64,000 bases of DNA from Ekhidna lutea (lineage in GTDB: Bacteria; Bacteroidota; Bacteroidia; Cytophagales; Cyclobacteriaceae), in assembly GCF_900188325.1 (NCBI RefSeq), contig NZ_FZPD01000005.1:434001-498000 (forward strand), in the 5' to 3' direction. Below the pieces are notes generated by a model. It was not told the DNA's origin. It saw only the letters and a list, made by a program, of their open reading frames with translations, and made no database searches. Made by a program: the position numbers and the translations under genes. This document shows, in pieces, positions 25,028 to 33,201 of this stretch. Every line of letters begins with the position of its first letter. The stretch's first letter is position 1.

Positions 25028-25130
25028 AAAATTTATAAAGAAGCACGGAGAGACAGGCTCGTTGATGTGCTAGCAACCTGGTAACCAAACCAAGGTGCTA
25101 ATTCCTGAACTTTTAAAGTGAATATAAATT
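25028..25130 (+). promoter_or_regulatory. SAM-I (S-box) riboswitch
   Basis: The S-box core is visible: AAGAAGCACGGAGAGACAGG (25038-25057), GCTAGCAACC (25069-25078) and AAGGTGCTAATTCC (25092-25105). The helices fit the known fold. P1 is AATTTATA (25030-25037) with TATAAATT (25123-25130), P2 is AGCAC with GTGCT, P3 is the short CCTGG region and P4 is ACTTTTAAAGT. S-box RNAs bind S-adenosylmethionine and turn off methionine genes. The 3' strand of P1 ends at the base before the ATG of a Cys-rich leader ORF. The controlled operon starts with a homocysteine-forming enzyme, as expected. Confidence 0.88.
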
Positions 25131-25211
25131 ATGAAAAACGCACACAAACACTTTCAGGACATCCAATTACTCAACACGCACACAAGATCTATGTGCTGTT
25201 GCTGCTGTTAA
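25131..25211 (+). CDS. Putative leader peptide ending in five cysteines
   Basis: A 26-residue ORF, MKNAHKHFQDIQLLNTHTRS followed by MCCCCC and TAA at 25209-25211. The five Cys codons (TGC TGT TGC TGC TGT) directly precede the stop. It begins at the base after the SAM-I riboswitch and ends 68 bases before the metZ-like gene. Poly-Cys short ORFs upstream of sulfur genes are known in mycobacteria, where they act as cysteine-responsive attenuators. The same role is inferred here from position and sequence. The peptide itself probably has no function once made. A weak CCTCT/AGAGG hairpin (25219-25232) follows but lacks an adjacent T run. Confidence 0.7.
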   Translation: MKNAHKHFQDIQLLNTHTRSMCCCCC

Positions 25212-25279
25212 TTTTTAGCCTCTAAACAGAGGTCCGTCCCTACATTTTTCTTTTACCAATTTCTTAAATCCCGTTCAAA

Positions 25280-26488
25280 ATGAATTTTGAAACGCAAGCA
25301 ATTCGCACACAATTGTCGAATGCTTCTCAGAAGGAGCATTCTGCACCGGTCTATCTTACCAGCTCATTCACCTTCGATAATGCCGAGGAGGCCAGAGCGA
25401 AATTTAATGACGAGATTCCTGGGAATATTTACTCCCGTTATTCCAACCCGAACACAGACGAGTTCATTCAGAAACTTTGCCTGCTGGAAGGAGCAGAGGA
25501 TGGATTAGCTACCGCAACAGGCATGTCCGCGATGTTCACCAGTATGGCTGGATTGCTTCAGCATGGAGATCATGTGTTGGCATCCAGAGCCTTGTTTGGG
25601 TCCACTCATCAGCTTTTCACCAAAGTATTTCCAAAGTGGGGCATTGAACATTCCTATTTCAATCTGCATCGACCTGAGAAGTGGGAAAGTCTAATTACTC
25701 CGAAGACGAAAATGATTTTTGTGGAGACACCTTCCAATCCGGGATTGGATATTGTGGATCTGGAGTATCTGGGGCAACTGGCTGAAAAGCACAATCTGAT
25801 TTTGAATGTAGACAATTGCTTTGCAACTCCATACCTACAAAACCCAATTGAATGGGGCGCACACATTGTCACTCATTCTGCAACTAAATTCATCGATGGG
25901 CAGGGTAGGACGCTTGGAGGCGCCATTGTTGGAAAAAAGGATTTGATTGAAGAACTGCGATTCTTTGCTCGTCACACAGGGCCAAGTCTTTCACCATTCA
26001 ATGCCTGGGTCCTGAGTAAAAGCTTAGAGACCTTGGCAGTAAGAATGGAAAAGCATTGTGAAAATGCCTTCAAAATCGCCTCCTACCTGGAAGGTCATGA
26101 AGAATTGGAATTGGTGAAGTATCCATTTTTGGAAAGCCATCCACAGTGTGAGCTTGCCAAAAAACAGATGAAGCATGGTGGAGCTATCGTTACATTCATT
26201 GTAAAAGGAGGATTGGAAAGAGGAGTAAGATTCCTGGATAGTTTGAATATGCTGAGTCTAACACCCAACCTAGGTGATACACGAACAACCGTTACACATC
26301 CGGCGAGTACCACTCATAGTAAACTAACGGAGGAGGAACGTGCAAGTGTTGGAATAGCACCTGGACTGGTTCGAATTTCTGTCGGACTGGAAAATGTAAA
26401 CGATATCCTGGGTGATATAGAACAAGCATTGCAGGCAAGCAAGGAAAAGACGGTAAACCCACGAATTGAAAATTTGATCAAAGTATGA
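25280..26488 (+). CDS. metZ: O-succinyl/O-acetylhomoserine sulfhydrylase (MetZ-like)
   Basis: A 402-residue PLP enzyme of the Cys/Met metabolism family, which makes homocysteine directly from sulfide and an activated homoserine. SRYSNPNTDEFIQKLCLLEGAEDGLATATGMSAM is the N-terminal region. VDNCFATPYLQ holds the PLP-nitrogen Asp. HSATKFIDGQGRTLGGAIVG contains the Schiff-base Lys and is very like MetZ. The C-terminal SLGDTRTTVTHPAS-type block (NLGDTRTTVTHPAST) is complete. MetZ and MetY are not fully separable by sequence alone. It is the first large gene after the riboswitch, and its stop overlaps a second short Cys ORF. Confidence 0.88.
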   Translation: MNFETQAIRTQLSNASQKEHSAPVYLTSSFTFDNAEEARAKFNDEIPGNIYSRYSNPNTDEFIQKLCLLEGAEDGLATATGMSAMFTSMAGLLQHGDHVLASRALFGSTHQLFTKVFPKWGIEHSYFNLHRPEKWESLITPKTKMIFVETPSNPGLDIVDLEYLGQLAEKHNLILNVDNCFATPYLQNPIEWGAHIVTHSATKFIDGQGRTLGGAIVGKKDLIEELRFFARHTGPSLSPFNAWVLSKSLETLAVRMEKHCENAFKIASYLEGHEELELVKYPFLESHPQCELAKKQMKHGGAIVTFIVKGGLERGVRFLDSLNMLSLTPNLGDTRTTVTHPASTTHSKLTEEERASVGIAPGLVRISVGLENVNDILGDIEQALQASKEKTVNPRIENLIKV

Positions 26489-26650: not shown

Positions 26651-28774
26651 ATGTCAACCATATCCATATCAAAAGAAGCACAGGAAGATATCTCAGAGCT
26701 AAAATCCAGGATTGGAAATTTTCATCTGGGGCTCATTCCTGAAGAACGATTTAAAGCATTTCGCCTCACACGTGGGGTTTATGGTCAGCGCCAGCAGGGA
26801 GTACAAATGTTGAGAATAAAACTTCCTTATGGTAAAATCACACCGGATCAATTACGTGTAGTTGCGGAGATTTCAGATGAATACACCAATGGAAATCTGC
26901 ATCTTACCACGAGGCAAAACATTCAGTTACATCATATTCCACTGGACGATACTCCTGCTATTTGGAACAAACTAGAGCGTGTGGGAGTCACCTTGCGAGA
27001 AGCTTGTGGGAACACTGTAAGGAATGTTACTGCATCGCCAACAGCAGGTATTGATCCTAATGAACCATTTGATGTGACACCCTATGCGGATGCTACATTC
27101 AAATATTTCCTCAGAAATCCGGTCTGCCAGGATATGGGTAGAAAAATCAAGATTGCCTTTTCTTCCAGCGATCAGGATGATGCTTTCACATACATTCATG
27201 ATTTTGGATTTATACCGAAGATAAAAAGTGGAATTCGAGGCTTTAAGGTAGTAGTTGGTGGGGGCCTTGGCGCACAAACCTTCTTCGGCCAGATAGCTTA
27301 TGAGTTTTTACCCGAGGAGAAGATCATACCATTCGTTGAAGCCGGATTACGCGTTTTTGACCGGCACGGTGAAAGAGAGCGTAGGCACAAAGCACGATTG
27401 AAGTTTCTGCTTGATCCGAAAAAAGGAATTGGTTTAGATGAGTTCCTCAGATTGATTGATGAGGAGTATAAGTCTTTACCAAATCAGGTTTACCCGATAT
27501 CTCACGAGGAAGAAACGTTTCATGCTTTTAAGCGGCCACACGCCAACTTTAAAATAGATGATGTAGATGCATTTAGGAATTGGAAGCGAACCAATGTGAC
27601 TGAACAGAAGCAAAAAGGATATTACGCTGTAAAAATCAAAGTGCCTCTCGGAAATATCTCATCAACGATTGCGAGGAAGATTGCATTAATTGCTGAAGCT
27701 TATGCATCTACAGATATTAGAATCACGATCAATCAGGGGCTACTATTTCGATATGTCAGTGTGGAAAGTTTACCAGCATTATATACGGCACTTGGTGAGT
27801 TGGATCTCAATAAACCAGGTTTTGATACGCTGGCCGATGTTACCGCATGCCCGGGGACAGACACCTGCAATTTAGGAGTAACGAATAGTACCCAACTTGC
27901 TACGGAGCTGGAAAAGGTTATTCAAACAGAATATGTACACCTTATAGACGAGTCTCAGATCAAGATAAAGATAAGCGGATGTATGAATTCCTGTGGTCAG
28001 CACATGATTGCCAATATTGGATTTCATGGAAGCAGTATCAAAAATGGAGATCATGTGGTGCCGGCCATGCAGGTGGTCATTGGAGGAGGTATCGAACCTG
28101 ACCATCAGGGGTACATCGCAGAGAAAGTGATCAAGCTTCCGACTAAGCGAATTCCTGATGCTGTGCGCATTCTGTTGGATGATTTTGAAGCCAATGCGGA
28201 GGAAACCGAATACTTCAATCAATATTTCAGAAGCGAAGGAAAGAAGTATTTCTATGAGTTGCTAAAGCCACTTGCAGATCTTTCCTCCATTCAAAATAAT
28301 GAATATCTGGATTGGGGAGGAGCGGAGGAGTTTACCCCGGAAGTTGGAGTGGGAGAATGTGCCGGAGTTGTCTTGGATTTGGTCAGTACGATCATCGGTG
28401 ATGCTAAGGAAAAGATTCAGTACGCTCGAGAAGATTTTGAAAAAGAGAAGTGGGCAAATGCCATCTATCATAGCTACAGTGCTTTTGTGATAGGAGCTAA
28501 AGCTTTGCTACTCAGCGAAGATGTTCAGTGCAATACCCATAAAGCCATTATCGAGGATTTTGAGAAGCATTTCGAAAGTCATCCGGAATTGCCAGTAGCA
28601 ACCCAATTCTCGAAGGAAGTACTTAGAATAAATAGGTATGCGCCTAATGCGGCATTTGCCCGAGTGTATTTGACTGGCGCAGAAGATTTCATCAATCGGA
28701 TATTGAAGATCAGACGTCAGTCAGAGGAAGGAGCCAATGAAAAATTAGTGGTTAAAGATTATTACAAAGCATAA
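26651..28774 (+). CDS. Sulfite reductase (ferredoxin-type), siroheme/4Fe-4S, with C-terminal helical extension
   Basis: A 707-residue enzyme reducing sulfite to sulfide. FRLTRGVYGQRQQGVQMLRIKLPYGKIT and HLTTRQNIQLHHIP are the first nitrite/sulfite reductase half. The cluster and siroheme ligands are C400, C406, C444 and C448 in ACPGTDTC and SGCMNSC, fully conserved. Residues from about 560 (VGVGECAGVV) onwards form an extra helical part with AIYHSYSAFVIGAKALLL, which resembles a HEPN domain; the enzyme without it would be of normal length (~540). No flavoprotein subunit is nearby, so ferredoxin is the likely donor. Siroheme genes follow immediately, so sulfite is a better guess than nitrite. 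Confidence 0.9.
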   Translation: MSTISISKEAQEDISELKSRIGNFHLGLIPEERFKAFRLTRGVYGQRQQGVQMLRIKLPYGKITPDQLRVVAEISDEYTNGNLHLTTRQNIQLHHIPLDDTPAIWNKLERVGVTLREACGNTVRNVTASPTAGIDPNEPFDVTPYADATFKYFLRNPVCQDMGRKIKIAFSSSDQDDAFTYIHDFGFIPKIKSGIRGFKVVVGGGLGAQTFFGQIAYEFLPEEKIIPFVEAGLRVFDRHGERERRHKARLKFLLDPKKGIGLDEFLRLIDEEYKSLPNQVYPISHEEETFHAFKRPHANFKIDDVDAFRNWKRTNVTEQKQKGYYAVKIKVPLGNISSTIARKIALIAEAYASTDIRITINQGLLFRYVSVESLPALYTALGELDLNKPGFDTLADVTACPGTDTCNLGVTNSTQLATELEKVIQTEYVHLIDESQIKIKISGCMNSCGQHMIANIGFHGSSIKNGDHVVPAMQVVIGGGIEPDHQGYIAEKVIKLPTKRIPDAVRILLDDFEANAEETEYFNQYFRSEGKKYFYELLKPLADLSSIQNNEYLDWGGAEEFTPEVGVGECAGVVLDLVSTIIGDAKEKIQYAREDFEKEKWANAIYHSYSAFVIGAKALLLSEDVQCNTHKAIIEDFEKHFESHPELPVATQFSKEVLRINRYAPNAAFARVYLTGAEDFINRILKIRRQSEEGANEKLVVKDYYKA

Positions 28775-28776
28775 CT

Positions 28777-29529
28777 ATGAGTGAACACAAACTAACATTA
28801 GTTGGGACAGGCCCGGGGGATCCGGATCTGATCACCATCAAAGGAGTAAAAGCACTCGAACAAGCAGATGTGGTGCTGTATGATGCATTGGTTTCTCCCG
28901 AGTTACTACGGTTTGCTCCTTGTGCGGAGCATATACCTGTTGGCAAGCGAGCAGGGAAAGCAAGCCTTTCTCAGGAAACAATCAACAGCTTAATTGTAGA
29001 TAAAGCATTGAATAAAGGACATGTCGTGAGGCTAAAGGGCGGAGATCCATTTGTCTTTGGTCGTGGGTTTGAAGAGCTGCAGTATGCAGAGCAACATGGC
29101 ATAGATACAGAGGTAGTCATCGGGATTAGCAGCATCATGCTGCCAGGGCTTTATGGCATCCCACTTACTTGCCGAGGGGTGAATCAGGGTTTTTCAATCC
29201 TGACTGCTACCTCTGCAGATGGTTCTGTTAGTGGGGAAGTGGGAAAAGCGGCCAAAACAGCCTCAACCGCTTTGATATTTATGGGTTTGTCAAAGCTGGA
29301 TGAGGTAGTTACTCACTATCTAAATGAAGGTCGGGGAGATTTGCCTGTTGCTATCATCAGCAATGGCTCGCTCGCTGAGGCACAGGTGATTGCTGGTACG
29401 GTGAATTCGATTGTCGATGAAGCCCGAGATCAAAAGCCAACATCCCCGGCCCTCTTAATTTTTGGAGAAGGTGCAGCTTATGCTGGCCGAACCAATTATC
29501 AGACTATTAAAAAAGCGGAAGTAATATGA
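28777..29529 (+). CDS. cobA: Uroporphyrinogen-III C-methyltransferase
   Basis: A 250-residue SAM-dependent methyltransferase that makes precorrin-2, the siroheme precursor, by methylating uroporphyrinogen III at C2 and C7. LVGTGPGDPDLITIKGVKALEQADVVLYDALV is the SUMT N-terminal signature and VRLKGGDPFVFGRGFEELQ the second. The C-terminal PVAIISNGSLAEAQVIAGTV fits too. It starts two bases after the sulfite reductase stop and overlaps the next gene by four bases, so siroheme supply is coupled to its user. Full length for the family. Confidence 0.96.
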   Translation: MSEHKLTLVGTGPGDPDLITIKGVKALEQADVVLYDALVSPELLRFAPCAEHIPVGKRAGKASLSQETINSLIVDKALNKGHVVRLKGGDPFVFGRGFEELQYAEQHGIDTEVVIGISSIMLPGLYGIPLTCRGVNQGFSILTATSADGSVSGEVGKAAKTASTALIFMGLSKLDEVVTHYLNEGRGDLPVAIISNGSLAEAQVIAGTVNSIVDEARDQKPTSPALLIFGEGAAYAGRTNYQTIKKAEVI

Positions 29530-30116
29530 CAACAGGAAATTCTTTATTCCCGGTTTTTATAAAACTGGATCAAATACACACACTTATTGTAGGTGGTGGA
29601 AGTGTTGGGCTGGAAAAATTAGATGCCTTGCTTCGAAACGATCACGAAGCTCAGGTGACCATTGTGTCAAAAAAGATAAACAGAGAAATACGCCAGAGGC
29701 AAGGATTATCAAGGCAGATCAAATTGATAGAGCGCCCATTCAGAAAAAGTGATTTGAAAGGGAAGGATCTGGTCATTTTGGCTACCGATGATCAAAGACT
29801 TCATTCACGGATTAGGTCAATCGCTCGAAAGAAGCATCTATTGATAAATGTGGCAGATACTCCTCACTTATGTGATTTCTATTTAGGATCGACCGTCAAA
29901 AAAGGGGATTTAAAAATTGGAATCAGCACGAATGGAAAGTCTCCGACTTTTTCAAAACGATTGAAGGAAGTGTTGAATGAAACATTGCCGGATGAAACGG
30001 ATTTGCTGCTTCAGAACTTAAAGGTCATTCGTGATCGGTTGAAAGGAGACTTCTCTTTCAAAGTGAAAGCATTAAATGGAATTACGAAATCATTGATTGA
30101 TAGAAATGAAGTCTAG
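29526..30116 (+). CDS. Precorrin-2 dehydrogenase / siroheme synthase N-terminal domain
   Basis: A 196-residue protein corresponding to the N-terminal part of CysG/Met8. LFPVFIKLDQIHTLIVGGGSVGLEKLDALLRN is the NAD-binding Rossmann start. VILATDDQRLHSRIRSIARKKHLLINVADTPHLCDFYLGSTVKKGDLKIGISTNGKSPTFSKRLKEVL is the conserved catalytic core, with the Asp of NVADTPHLCDF in the usual position. It oxidises precorrin-2 to sirohydrochlorin and may also insert iron. With cobA it completes siroheme synthesis. The overlap with cysH is 11 bases. Confidence 0.93.
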   Translation: MTTGNSLFPVFIKLDQIHTLIVGGGSVGLEKLDALLRNDHEAQVTIVSKKINREIRQRQGLSRQIKLIERPFRKSDLKGKDLVILATDDQRLHSRIRSIARKKHLLINVADTPHLCDFYLGSTVKKGDLKIGISTNGKSPTFSKRLKEVLNETLPDETDLLLQNLKVIRDRLKGDFSFKVKALNGITKSLIDRNEV

Positions 30117-30777
30117 TAAACAAGAAAATTTGGTTCGGTTAAATGAGCGCTACCATCCCTTAAGTCCGCTTGAGCGGATGGAGCGCCTCTTTTCAGAATT
30201 TGATCACGATCGTATTCTAATGACTTCTTCTTTTGGAACCACCTCGGCTATCCTTCTTGATATGATCAGTAAGGTTGCACCGAATCACCCGGTCTACTTG
30301 GTCAATACCGGATATTTATTTGAAGAAACACTTCAATACAAAGAGGAGATCAAACAAAAGCTTAGGTTGAATATTGTGGAGGTTGGCGCTCAGGAAAATA
30401 AGCATCGGTTCACGCAGGACAATCAAACCTGGAAATACCAAAATGACTTATGCTGCTTTATCAATAAGGTAGATCCGACCGACCAGTTGAAGAAGGGGAA
30501 GGATATATGGATTTCGGGACTGCTCAGGTTTCAGAATGCAAACCGCCAACACCTTCGAATCTTCGAACCGAGAGATGAGTTACTCAAATTTCACCCGATC
30601 ATTGATATGACTCCAGAGGAGGTGAGTTTGTATCACACCATTTATGAGTTACCACAGAACAAACTCTATTATCAGGGGTACGGATCAGTGGGCTGTACGC
30701 ATTGCACCGAAAAAGGAGACCAGCGAGAGGGGAGGTGGTTAAATCAGGGAAAGACCGAGTGTGGGTTACATTTGTAA
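30106..30777 (+). CDS. cysH: Phosphoadenylyl/adenylyl-sulfate reductase with 4Fe-4S motif
   Basis: A 223-residue cytoplasmic reductase that forms sulfite from activated sulfate. The ATG at 30106 (MKSSKQENLVRLN) is preferred over a TTG nine bases upstream. TSSFGTTSAILLDMI is the PP-motif nucleotide loop. Cys116-Cys117, Cys197 and Cys200 (DLCC and CTHC) are the 4Fe-4S ligands typical of APS-type reductases, and the C-terminal ECGLH carries the catalytic Cys219. The iron-sulfur ligands point to adenylyl sulfate as the likely substrate. It is the last gene of the operon. The sulfate adenylyltransferase is not in the window. Confidence 0.94.
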   Translation: MKSSKQENLVRLNERYHPLSPLERMERLFSEFDHDRILMTSSFGTTSAILLDMISKVAPNHPVYLVNTGYLFEETLQYKEEIKQKLRLNIVEVGAQENKHRFTQDNQTWKYQNDLCCFINKVDPTDQLKKGKDIWISGLLRFQNANRQHLRIFEPRDELLKFHPIIDMTPEEVSLYHTIYELPQNKLYYQGYGSVGCTHCTEKGDQREGRWLNQGKTECGLHL

Positions 30778-33128: not shown

Positions 33129-33201
33129 TTGGCCTACTAGGGCTCGAACCTAGACTCTTCTGGACCAAAACCAGACGTGTTGCCAGTTACACCATAGGCC
33201 A
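33129..33201 (-). tRNA. tRNA-Gln (anticodon TTG)
   Basis: The minus strand folds as a complete cloverleaf of 73 bases. The acceptor stem is TGGCCTA with TAGGCCA plus discriminator A, the D stem is GTGT with ACAC, the anticodon stem is TCTGG with CCAGA around the loop TTTTGGT, the variable loop is AGAGT and the T stem is CTAGG with CCTAG around TTCGAGC. The anticodon TTG reads CAA/CAG. The CCA end is not encoded. A terminator follows at 33071-33103. Confidence 0.96.

Follow-up and report, generated by a model that had tools for sequence, protein, structure and literature searches.

A S-adenosylmethionine (SAM)-I riboswitch runs directly into a short open reading frame (ORF) ending in five cysteine (Cys) codons, ahead of a metZ-like gene, in Ekhidna lutea (Bacteroidota; Cytophagales). 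The element was analyzed within a window of 64,000 nucleotides (nt) (assembly GCF_900188325.1, contig NZ_FZPD01000005.1, positions 434,001 to 498,000 of the forward strand; positions below are those of the window). We propose, at a probability of roughly 0.55, that the P1 switching stem of this riboswitch forms part of the ribosome-entry region of a Cys/methionine (Met) attenuator leader, that one RNA integrates SAM binding with Cys- and Met-tRNA charging, and that the arrangement occurs in several Bacteroidia families with a UAUAAA-type P1 of its own that sets it apart from the SAM-I form ahead of metH. In general terms, the element is probably a SAM-I riboswitch, with a predicted ligand response, that uses an attenuator leader ORF as its expression platform.

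The aptamer matched RF00162 over the full model (E 5.4e-16), above the gathering threshold, and both S-box core strings quoted in a preliminary description of this DNA were found in the sequence. By score and core sequence the RNA is a member of the SAM-I family, for which SAM binding is predicted. The P1 strands are complementary at 8 of 8 positions, giving a closed stem. The leader ORF opens at the base right after the aptamer end (offset 0), its stop codon occupies 25209-25211, and the peptide ends in MCCCCC. The 26 codons, the five terminal Cys codons and the 68-nt gap to the metZ-like gene had been described and placed correctly beforehand. In comparison with typical SAM-I riboswitches (RF00162), the P1 stem in the window consists of A and U only and borders directly on a leader ORF, the search for a terminator found none, and the gene start lies 149 nt from the aptamer. 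No Rfam match to a T-box was seen in the window: gathering scores were reached by SAM and one tRNA only. The tRNA gene is on the minus strand at 33129-33201 (Rfam, 62.9 bits).

To place the window locus among its relatives, 59 related genomes were sampled: RF00162 was found in 51, with 111 matches listed, and 110 of these loci were read with the DNA that follows (G053:C469 was left out). A locus was scored as paired when an ORF of 10 to 70 codons began with an ATG between -8 and +25 relative to the end of the aptamer and had 3 or more Cys among its last 12 residues. Gene class was taken from the best BLAST match of the first ORF of at least 150 amino acids (aa) to five references, which left 17 of 110 loci without a class. 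In the Ekhidna genome, both SAM-I loci not ahead of metH carried a Cys-tailed short ORF, and the single metH locus did not. A similar division was seen in the relatives: the Cys-tailed ORF followed SAM-I at 44 of 73 non-metH loci compared to 0 of 37 metH loci (110 loci, 51 genomes). Passes by class were 24/32 for metY, 6/15 for metZ, 3/7 for metX, 11/17 for unassigned loci and 0/2 for CBL-like loci, and at least one pairing was present in 33 of the 51 relatives that have SAM-I. When the same ATGs were read in other frames, 0 of 73 loci passed in the +1 frame and 4 of 73 in the +2 frame. The observation in the window is confirmed as real and not due to chance, because both non-metH SAM-I loci of Ekhidna carry a Cys-tailed ORF and the pairing recurs in those relatives.

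Recurrence was also seen outside this sample. A class-wide sample added 83 further loci, part of the matches listed (L340 was dropped); among these, 5 of 5 metY loci passed and 0 of 78 elsewhere, the non-passing loci being metH (55), unassigned (11), CBL-like (10), metX (1) and metZ (1). The five metY passes came from families f1, f22 (two), f102 and f103. A scan of named genomes by TGY pattern gave 118 stretches among the matches listed, mostly chance; 28 of these contained an in-frame Cys-tail ORF, and RF00162 was present in 16 of the 18 of those 28 that were put to Rfam (L209 and L211 were without). This set was picked by TGY runs and is therefore independent evidence for the SAM-I neighbor and for Met only. 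Leaders beside RF00162 were seen in records of Pontibacter, Rufibacter, Nafulsella turpanensis, Cesiribacter andamanensis, Mucilaginibacter, Thermoflexibacter ruber, Adhaeribacter rhizoryzae, one Chitinophagales metagenome-assembled genome, and others.

Leader composition was examined in sets defined by different criteria: 48 leaders with at least 3 Cys and an ATG at -15 to +74, of which 46 had the ATG at -8 to +26; 41 with the ATG at -1 to +16; and 44 that passed the stricter tail test. In the 46 leaders, 248 of the 690 residues in the last 15 positions were Cys compared to 12 in the rest, and Cys was concentrated in the last seven codons. Met was enriched as well, at 40 of 442 non-Cys tail residues compared to 8 of 1021 elsewhere, against a baseline of 2.1% in the 31 window ORFs of at least 200 aa; the Met and Cys enrichment statistics treat residues as independent although the loci are related. 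The Met excess was repeated, among the matches listed, in 25 pattern-found leaders (22/222 compared to 1/452) and in the five class-wide leaders (13/47 compared to 1/131). Met was not in every leader: the last 15 residues contained it in 27 of 46 leaders, 16 of 25 pattern-found leaders and 5 of 5 class-wide leaders. There were 33 Met-Cys junctions to 40 tail Met residues in the 46 leaders. Cys codons were mixed (TGT 165, TGC 95), Met, Arg, Tyr or Pro stood in frame between them, and tail order and length varied freely.

Conservation of the leader peptide itself was rejected: in the one pair counted (L025/L027), the body differed by 15 nonsynonymous and 2 synonymous codon changes around an identical Cys run. 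The frame, the start position and a tail of Cys and Met are found again in relatives while the body changes, and it therefore looks as if regulatory codons, rather than a working peptide, are kept. The preliminary description would have been refuted by a missing RF00162 hit or by Cys codons and a frame that relatives do not keep. Neither was the case: RF00162 matched, and Cys codons in the same frame and place were present at the 44 non-metH loci, at the five metY loci of the class-wide sample and in named records, although the leader body was not kept in the pair counted. The leaders have one feature expected of a Cys-responsive leader peptide, a short Cys-ending ORF ahead of sulfur genes that recurs in frame.

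The loci with leaders differed from metH loci in the riboswitch itself. P1 was typed at 263 loci from three sets (relatives, class-wide and phylum-wide), and its 3' strand contained UAUAAA in 63, GATRA in 181 and neither in 19; 104 of 105 metH loci were not of the UAUAAA form. An ATG at +4 to +16 was present at 58 of 63 UAUAAA loci, compared to 19% in shuffled letters, and at 27 of 181 GATRA loci, compared to 17%. The leader AUG mostly lay 7-11 nt past P1. The Cys tail followed the same division (UAUAAA 40/63, GATRA 4/181, others 5/19). The UAUAAA stem paired at 7.7 of 8 positions on average, with at least 7 pairs in 60 of 63 loci.

The position of P1 relative to the start codon suggests how the aptamer could act. 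In Flavobacterium johnsoniae, adenines at -3 and -6 favor initiation, -12 and -13 are named beside them, and start regions are less paired (cited sections of PMC6847099). Adenine frequencies in the 41 leaders were 61% at -3, 59% at -6, 71% at -12 and 73% at -13. At the usual offset, -12 and -13 fall inside the P1 strand, so a SAM-stabilized P1 would hide both positions. The start was within reach of the switching stem, as in a riboswitch-gated upstream ORF (uORF), at the 58 UAUAAA loci and in the window, which is one of five UAUAAA-type exceptions to the +4 to +16 range, with an AUG that abuts P1. A gating geometry with P1 inside the leader start region is well supported by these comparisons. 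On sequence, P1 and leader are joined more tightly than one after the other.

These features suggest a two-step control. With SAM bound, P1 would be paired over the leader initiation region and the leader would not be translated; the RNA beyond would stay naked and the operon off, most likely through Rho-dependent termination. At low SAM, P1 would open and ribosomes would translate the leader. If Cys- or Met-tRNA were short, ribosomes would stall at the tail, shielding the stop codon and the first part of the spacer, RNA polymerase would continue, and the sulfur genes would be made; with both tRNAs charged, ribosomes would leave fast and expression would be lower. The switch would sense SAM as a bound ligand, and Cys and Met through their codons. 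Stalling at terminal codons that keeps the post-stop region covered is the logic of tnaC. We infer the SAM step from the P1/AUG geometry and from a SAM-I switch described as acting mainly on translation (PMC7270179), and protection from Rho by translation is modeled on the Mbox-uORF case of Mycobacterium tuberculosis as outlined in PMC12810186. The step downstream of leader translation is less certain than SAM gating.

Several observations weigh against this proposal. The pairing is not universal: 29 of the 73 non-metH loci in relatives were without a Cys-tailed ORF. In a phylum-wide set of 70 loci, the best of the matches listed (41 outside the class, 29 inside), none passed the same test, and the six metY loci of the class in this set all failed (L125, L262, L266, L272, L273, L282). 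Among the matches listed, metY loci of the class in the two wider samples together passed at 5 of 11. In the failing L273 the ORF was at +9 and ended in ACCITRMR; L125 (G324, outside the order) had a Cys/Met-tailed ORF ending MMCCCCCCMPFGA, but 146 nt past the SAM-I aptamer. The 0 of 6 result leaves the estimate of 0.55 unchanged because the proposal claims several families, not the whole class. A strand swapped in from another locus paired nearly as well (7.41), so P1 pairing in the UAUAAA form reflects conservation with little covariation. The start region of the window was predicted to be open without ligand, and openness as a general trait was rejected: mean pairing was 0.39, and below 0.3 in only 11 of 41 leaders. 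The window AUG is nearer to P1 than usual, and of the four adenine positions only -3 is A, with none at -6, -12 or -13. The Rho step rests on terminator scarcity and a mild C excess in spacers (C/G 1.44 in leader loci compared to 1.20 in metH spacers).

The tail was also missing from part of the UAUAAA group, a further point against the proposal: 23 of the 63 loci had no three-Cys tail, and Cys sensing is therefore not essential to the device. An ATG at +4 to +12 was still present in 19 of these 23, one of which opens only two codons, and CC stood at or near the end in four (L046, L091, L106, L273). Nine of the 23 came from genomes G010, G027, G029, G030 and G035; the MetH proteins of G010, G027, G029 and G035 were 74-82% identical to that of G030, compared to 62-71% in the other genomes compared. 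The metY leader of G030 passed the Cys test (NCCICRFF). It seems that the gated ORF is more basic than the Cys tail, or that the tail was lost in part of this group.

The steps beyond leader translation could take another form. In classical hairpin attenuation the Cys tract would be one arm of competing hairpins, and stalling would choose between an antiterminator and an intrinsic terminator. Strong tract-spacer pairing was seen in a few loci (L012, z -5.4; L070, z -5.2; L055, z -2.5), and over 48 leaders the tract paired with the spacer at a mean z of -0.66 (signed-rank p 3.6e-5). However, an upstream control arm behaved alike (mean z -0.40; paired test p 0.21) and had z below -2 in 7 leaders compared to 3 for the tract; tract-spacer pairing was rejected as a general feature. 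Intrinsic terminators were rejected as the platform: none was found in the window, and terminator-like hairpins occurred in only 12 of 48 leader loci, some inside the leader ORF, and in 3 of 30 metH loci. We consider hairpin attenuation unlikely, and protection from Rho is favored because tract pairing was no better than the control, terminators were scarce and the genome encodes Rho.

Other readings place less weight on codons. The Cys/Met-rich peptide, nascent or released, might itself sense a chemical such as copper or sulfide, with codons mattering via the peptide; both enriched residues are sulfur ligands. This is somewhat more doubtful still, as the assigned window genes past the leader are those of sulfur amino acid or sulfate-reduction pathways, 33 of 44 leaders precede metY, metZ or metX as the first large ORF (11 unassigned), and the freely varying tail fits a count of codons more readily than a motif for binding. 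Leader translation alone might turn the operon on, by polarity relief or coupling, with the Cys tail adding little: the tail-less UAUAAA loci that keep their ATG, and the concentration of nine of the 23 tail-less loci in one MetH-similar group, agree with this. A Cys/Met tail at 40 of 63 UAUAAA loci despite a freely changing body needs selection on codons, and we regard translation alone as a weaker candidate than the peptide sensor. A non-coding TGY-rich RNA or DNA repeat lying there by chance is very improbable. The Ekhidna genome does contain 25 matches to TGYTGYTGYTGY (TGY4), some overlapping, compared to 3 for a reversed control pattern, and few are in short ATG ORFs: ATG ORFs that translate the tract as Cys were seen in the two SAM-I leaders, in L302 (38 aa, ending CCCCSFHD) and in L299 (57 aa, Cys near the start), four places in all. 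The frame test (44 compared to 0 and 4 of 73), the in-frame Met, Arg, Tyr or Pro amid Cys codons, and the packing of Cys at the end of the ORF all speak against a repeat.

Downstream of the leader, the metZ-like gene is followed by a sulfate-reduction run. The best NCBIfam match of the metZ-like gene was slightly below its cut-off of 522 bits, and the leader peptide had no NCBIfam match at E 10. Positions of all features are given in the table.

Features of the SAM-I leader region and the genes that follow it in the window.
Feature	Position	Strand	Evidence
SAM-I (S-box) riboswitch aptamer	25030..25130	+	RF00162 match, 75.8 bits, gathering 44.4, model 1-108
P1 5' strand AATTTATA	25030..25037	+	Rfam alignment
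P1 3' strand TATAAATT, directly upstream of leader AUG	25123..25130	+	Rfam alignment
Leader ORF, 26 codons, MKNAHKHFQDIQLLNTHTRSMCCCCC	25131..25211	+	ORF reading; similar position and frame in relatives
Tail, one Met and five Cys codons, ATG TGC TGT TGC TGC TGT	25191..25208	+	Sequence
Spacer, 68 nt, 18 C and 6 G, no intrinsic terminator seen; short hairpin 25219-25232	25212..25279	+	Sequence, hairpin search
metZ-like O-succinylhomoserine sulfhydrylase	25280..26488	+	NF006003, 515.8 bits
Sulfite reductase-like protein	26651..28774	+	PF01077, PF03460
Tetrapyrrole methylase, siroheme pathway by context	28777..29529	+	PF00590
Siroheme synthase-like protein	29526..30116	+	PF13241, PF14824
3'-phosphoadenosine 5'-phosphosulfate (PAPS) reductase-like protein, start codon uncertain	30097..30777	+	PF01507

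Other genes and structures were seen past the leaders of relatives. By eye, a ferredoxin-like small gene came first after the leader at L057, L069, L075 and L090 (ahead of metZ) and at L173, L183 and L244. An OsmC-like gene, also assigned by eye, followed the leader at L026, L039, L043, L064 and L070, four of them ahead of metY. At the SAM-I locus L055, two successive Cys-tailed ORFs (+8 and +160) were followed by a sulfite reductase-like gene. Past the leader stop, L010, L066 and L070 had a similar bulged hairpin, roughly GCCTATGA.. GTGACRGG.. GGTTAYGGCT, with no U run after it; the L070 version was more divergent than those of L010 and L066.

A SAM-gated Cys/Met leader has partial counterparts in known systems. 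Polycysteine small ORFs (sORFs) of mycobacteria are reportedly Cys-responsive operon attenuators (Canestrari 2020, cited in PMC13236596) and, similar to the element described here, consist of a short ORF with a Cys run. By their title they are leaderless, and that title names no riboswitch, whereas in the present element the AUG comes after an aptamer of about 100 nt and the Cys run is joined by Met codons; the full aptamer directly upstream of the window AUG speaks against a leaderless start. Riboswitch-controlled uORFs have been described in M. tuberculosis for B12 (PMC11260477) and for the Mbox ahead of pe20, where a translational platform, a uORF and Rho-dependent termination act together (PMC12810186). 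In these, as predicted here, the aptamer controls translation of an upstream ORF; the ligands and lineage are different, and amino-acid attenuator codons are not among the features described in the cited sections. The Xanthomonas riboswitch SAM-I Xcc, as summarized in its report, acts mainly on translation and also reads a tRNA signal of the same pathway (PMC7270179). Its platform binds uncharged initiator tRNA directly, whereas in the present element the signal would be read through translation of a leader. A T-box is reportedly part of the control of ubiG in Clostridium acetobutylicum. The S-box control of ubiG acts in antisense (Andre 2008, as described in PMC9943018). One sulfur operon is then under SAM and Cys-tRNA type signals, as proposed here, but through separate elements with an antisense S-box and, in that description, no leader peptide.

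Leader peptides are known in part from other groups as well. The uORFC-8-2 motif ahead of cysS in Rhodobacterales is a uORF with tandem Cys codons and a proposed attenuator (PMC8632094); unlike the present case, its two Cys codons lie inside a stem with a terminator, and the motif as described there has no riboswitch. Within the Bacteroidota, amino-acid operons of Flavobacterium psychrophilum were reported to show signs of upstream attenuation by leader peptides (PMC9723704, in part), and leader-peptide-like short ORFs were mentioned in long 5' untranslated regions of Bacteroides thetaiotaomicron (PMC7366714, in part). A literature search, which most subscription papers lay outside, found no paper joining a SAM riboswitch to a Cys leader in Bacteroidota; the preliminary description knew of no such SAM-I/poly-Cys pairing, and the search agrees. 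The parts are known singly, and what is new is their fusion via P1 with Met codons added. The initial reading of a SAM-I riboswitch with a Cys leader was supported; the P1/start fusion and the Met enrichment go beyond it.

A riboswitch and a leader-peptide attenuator are usually regarded as alternative modes of control. In this element the aptamer appears to decide whether the attenuator is read at all, which makes a two-stage gate in one RNA that would balance SAM, the end product, against Cys and Met. The arrangement points to a way in which initiation could be controlled by a riboswitch stem when bacterial mRNAs have no Shine-Dalgarno sequence. The device also predicts SAM-, Cys- and Met-responsive genes from sequence alone, including the ferredoxin- and OsmC-like ones.
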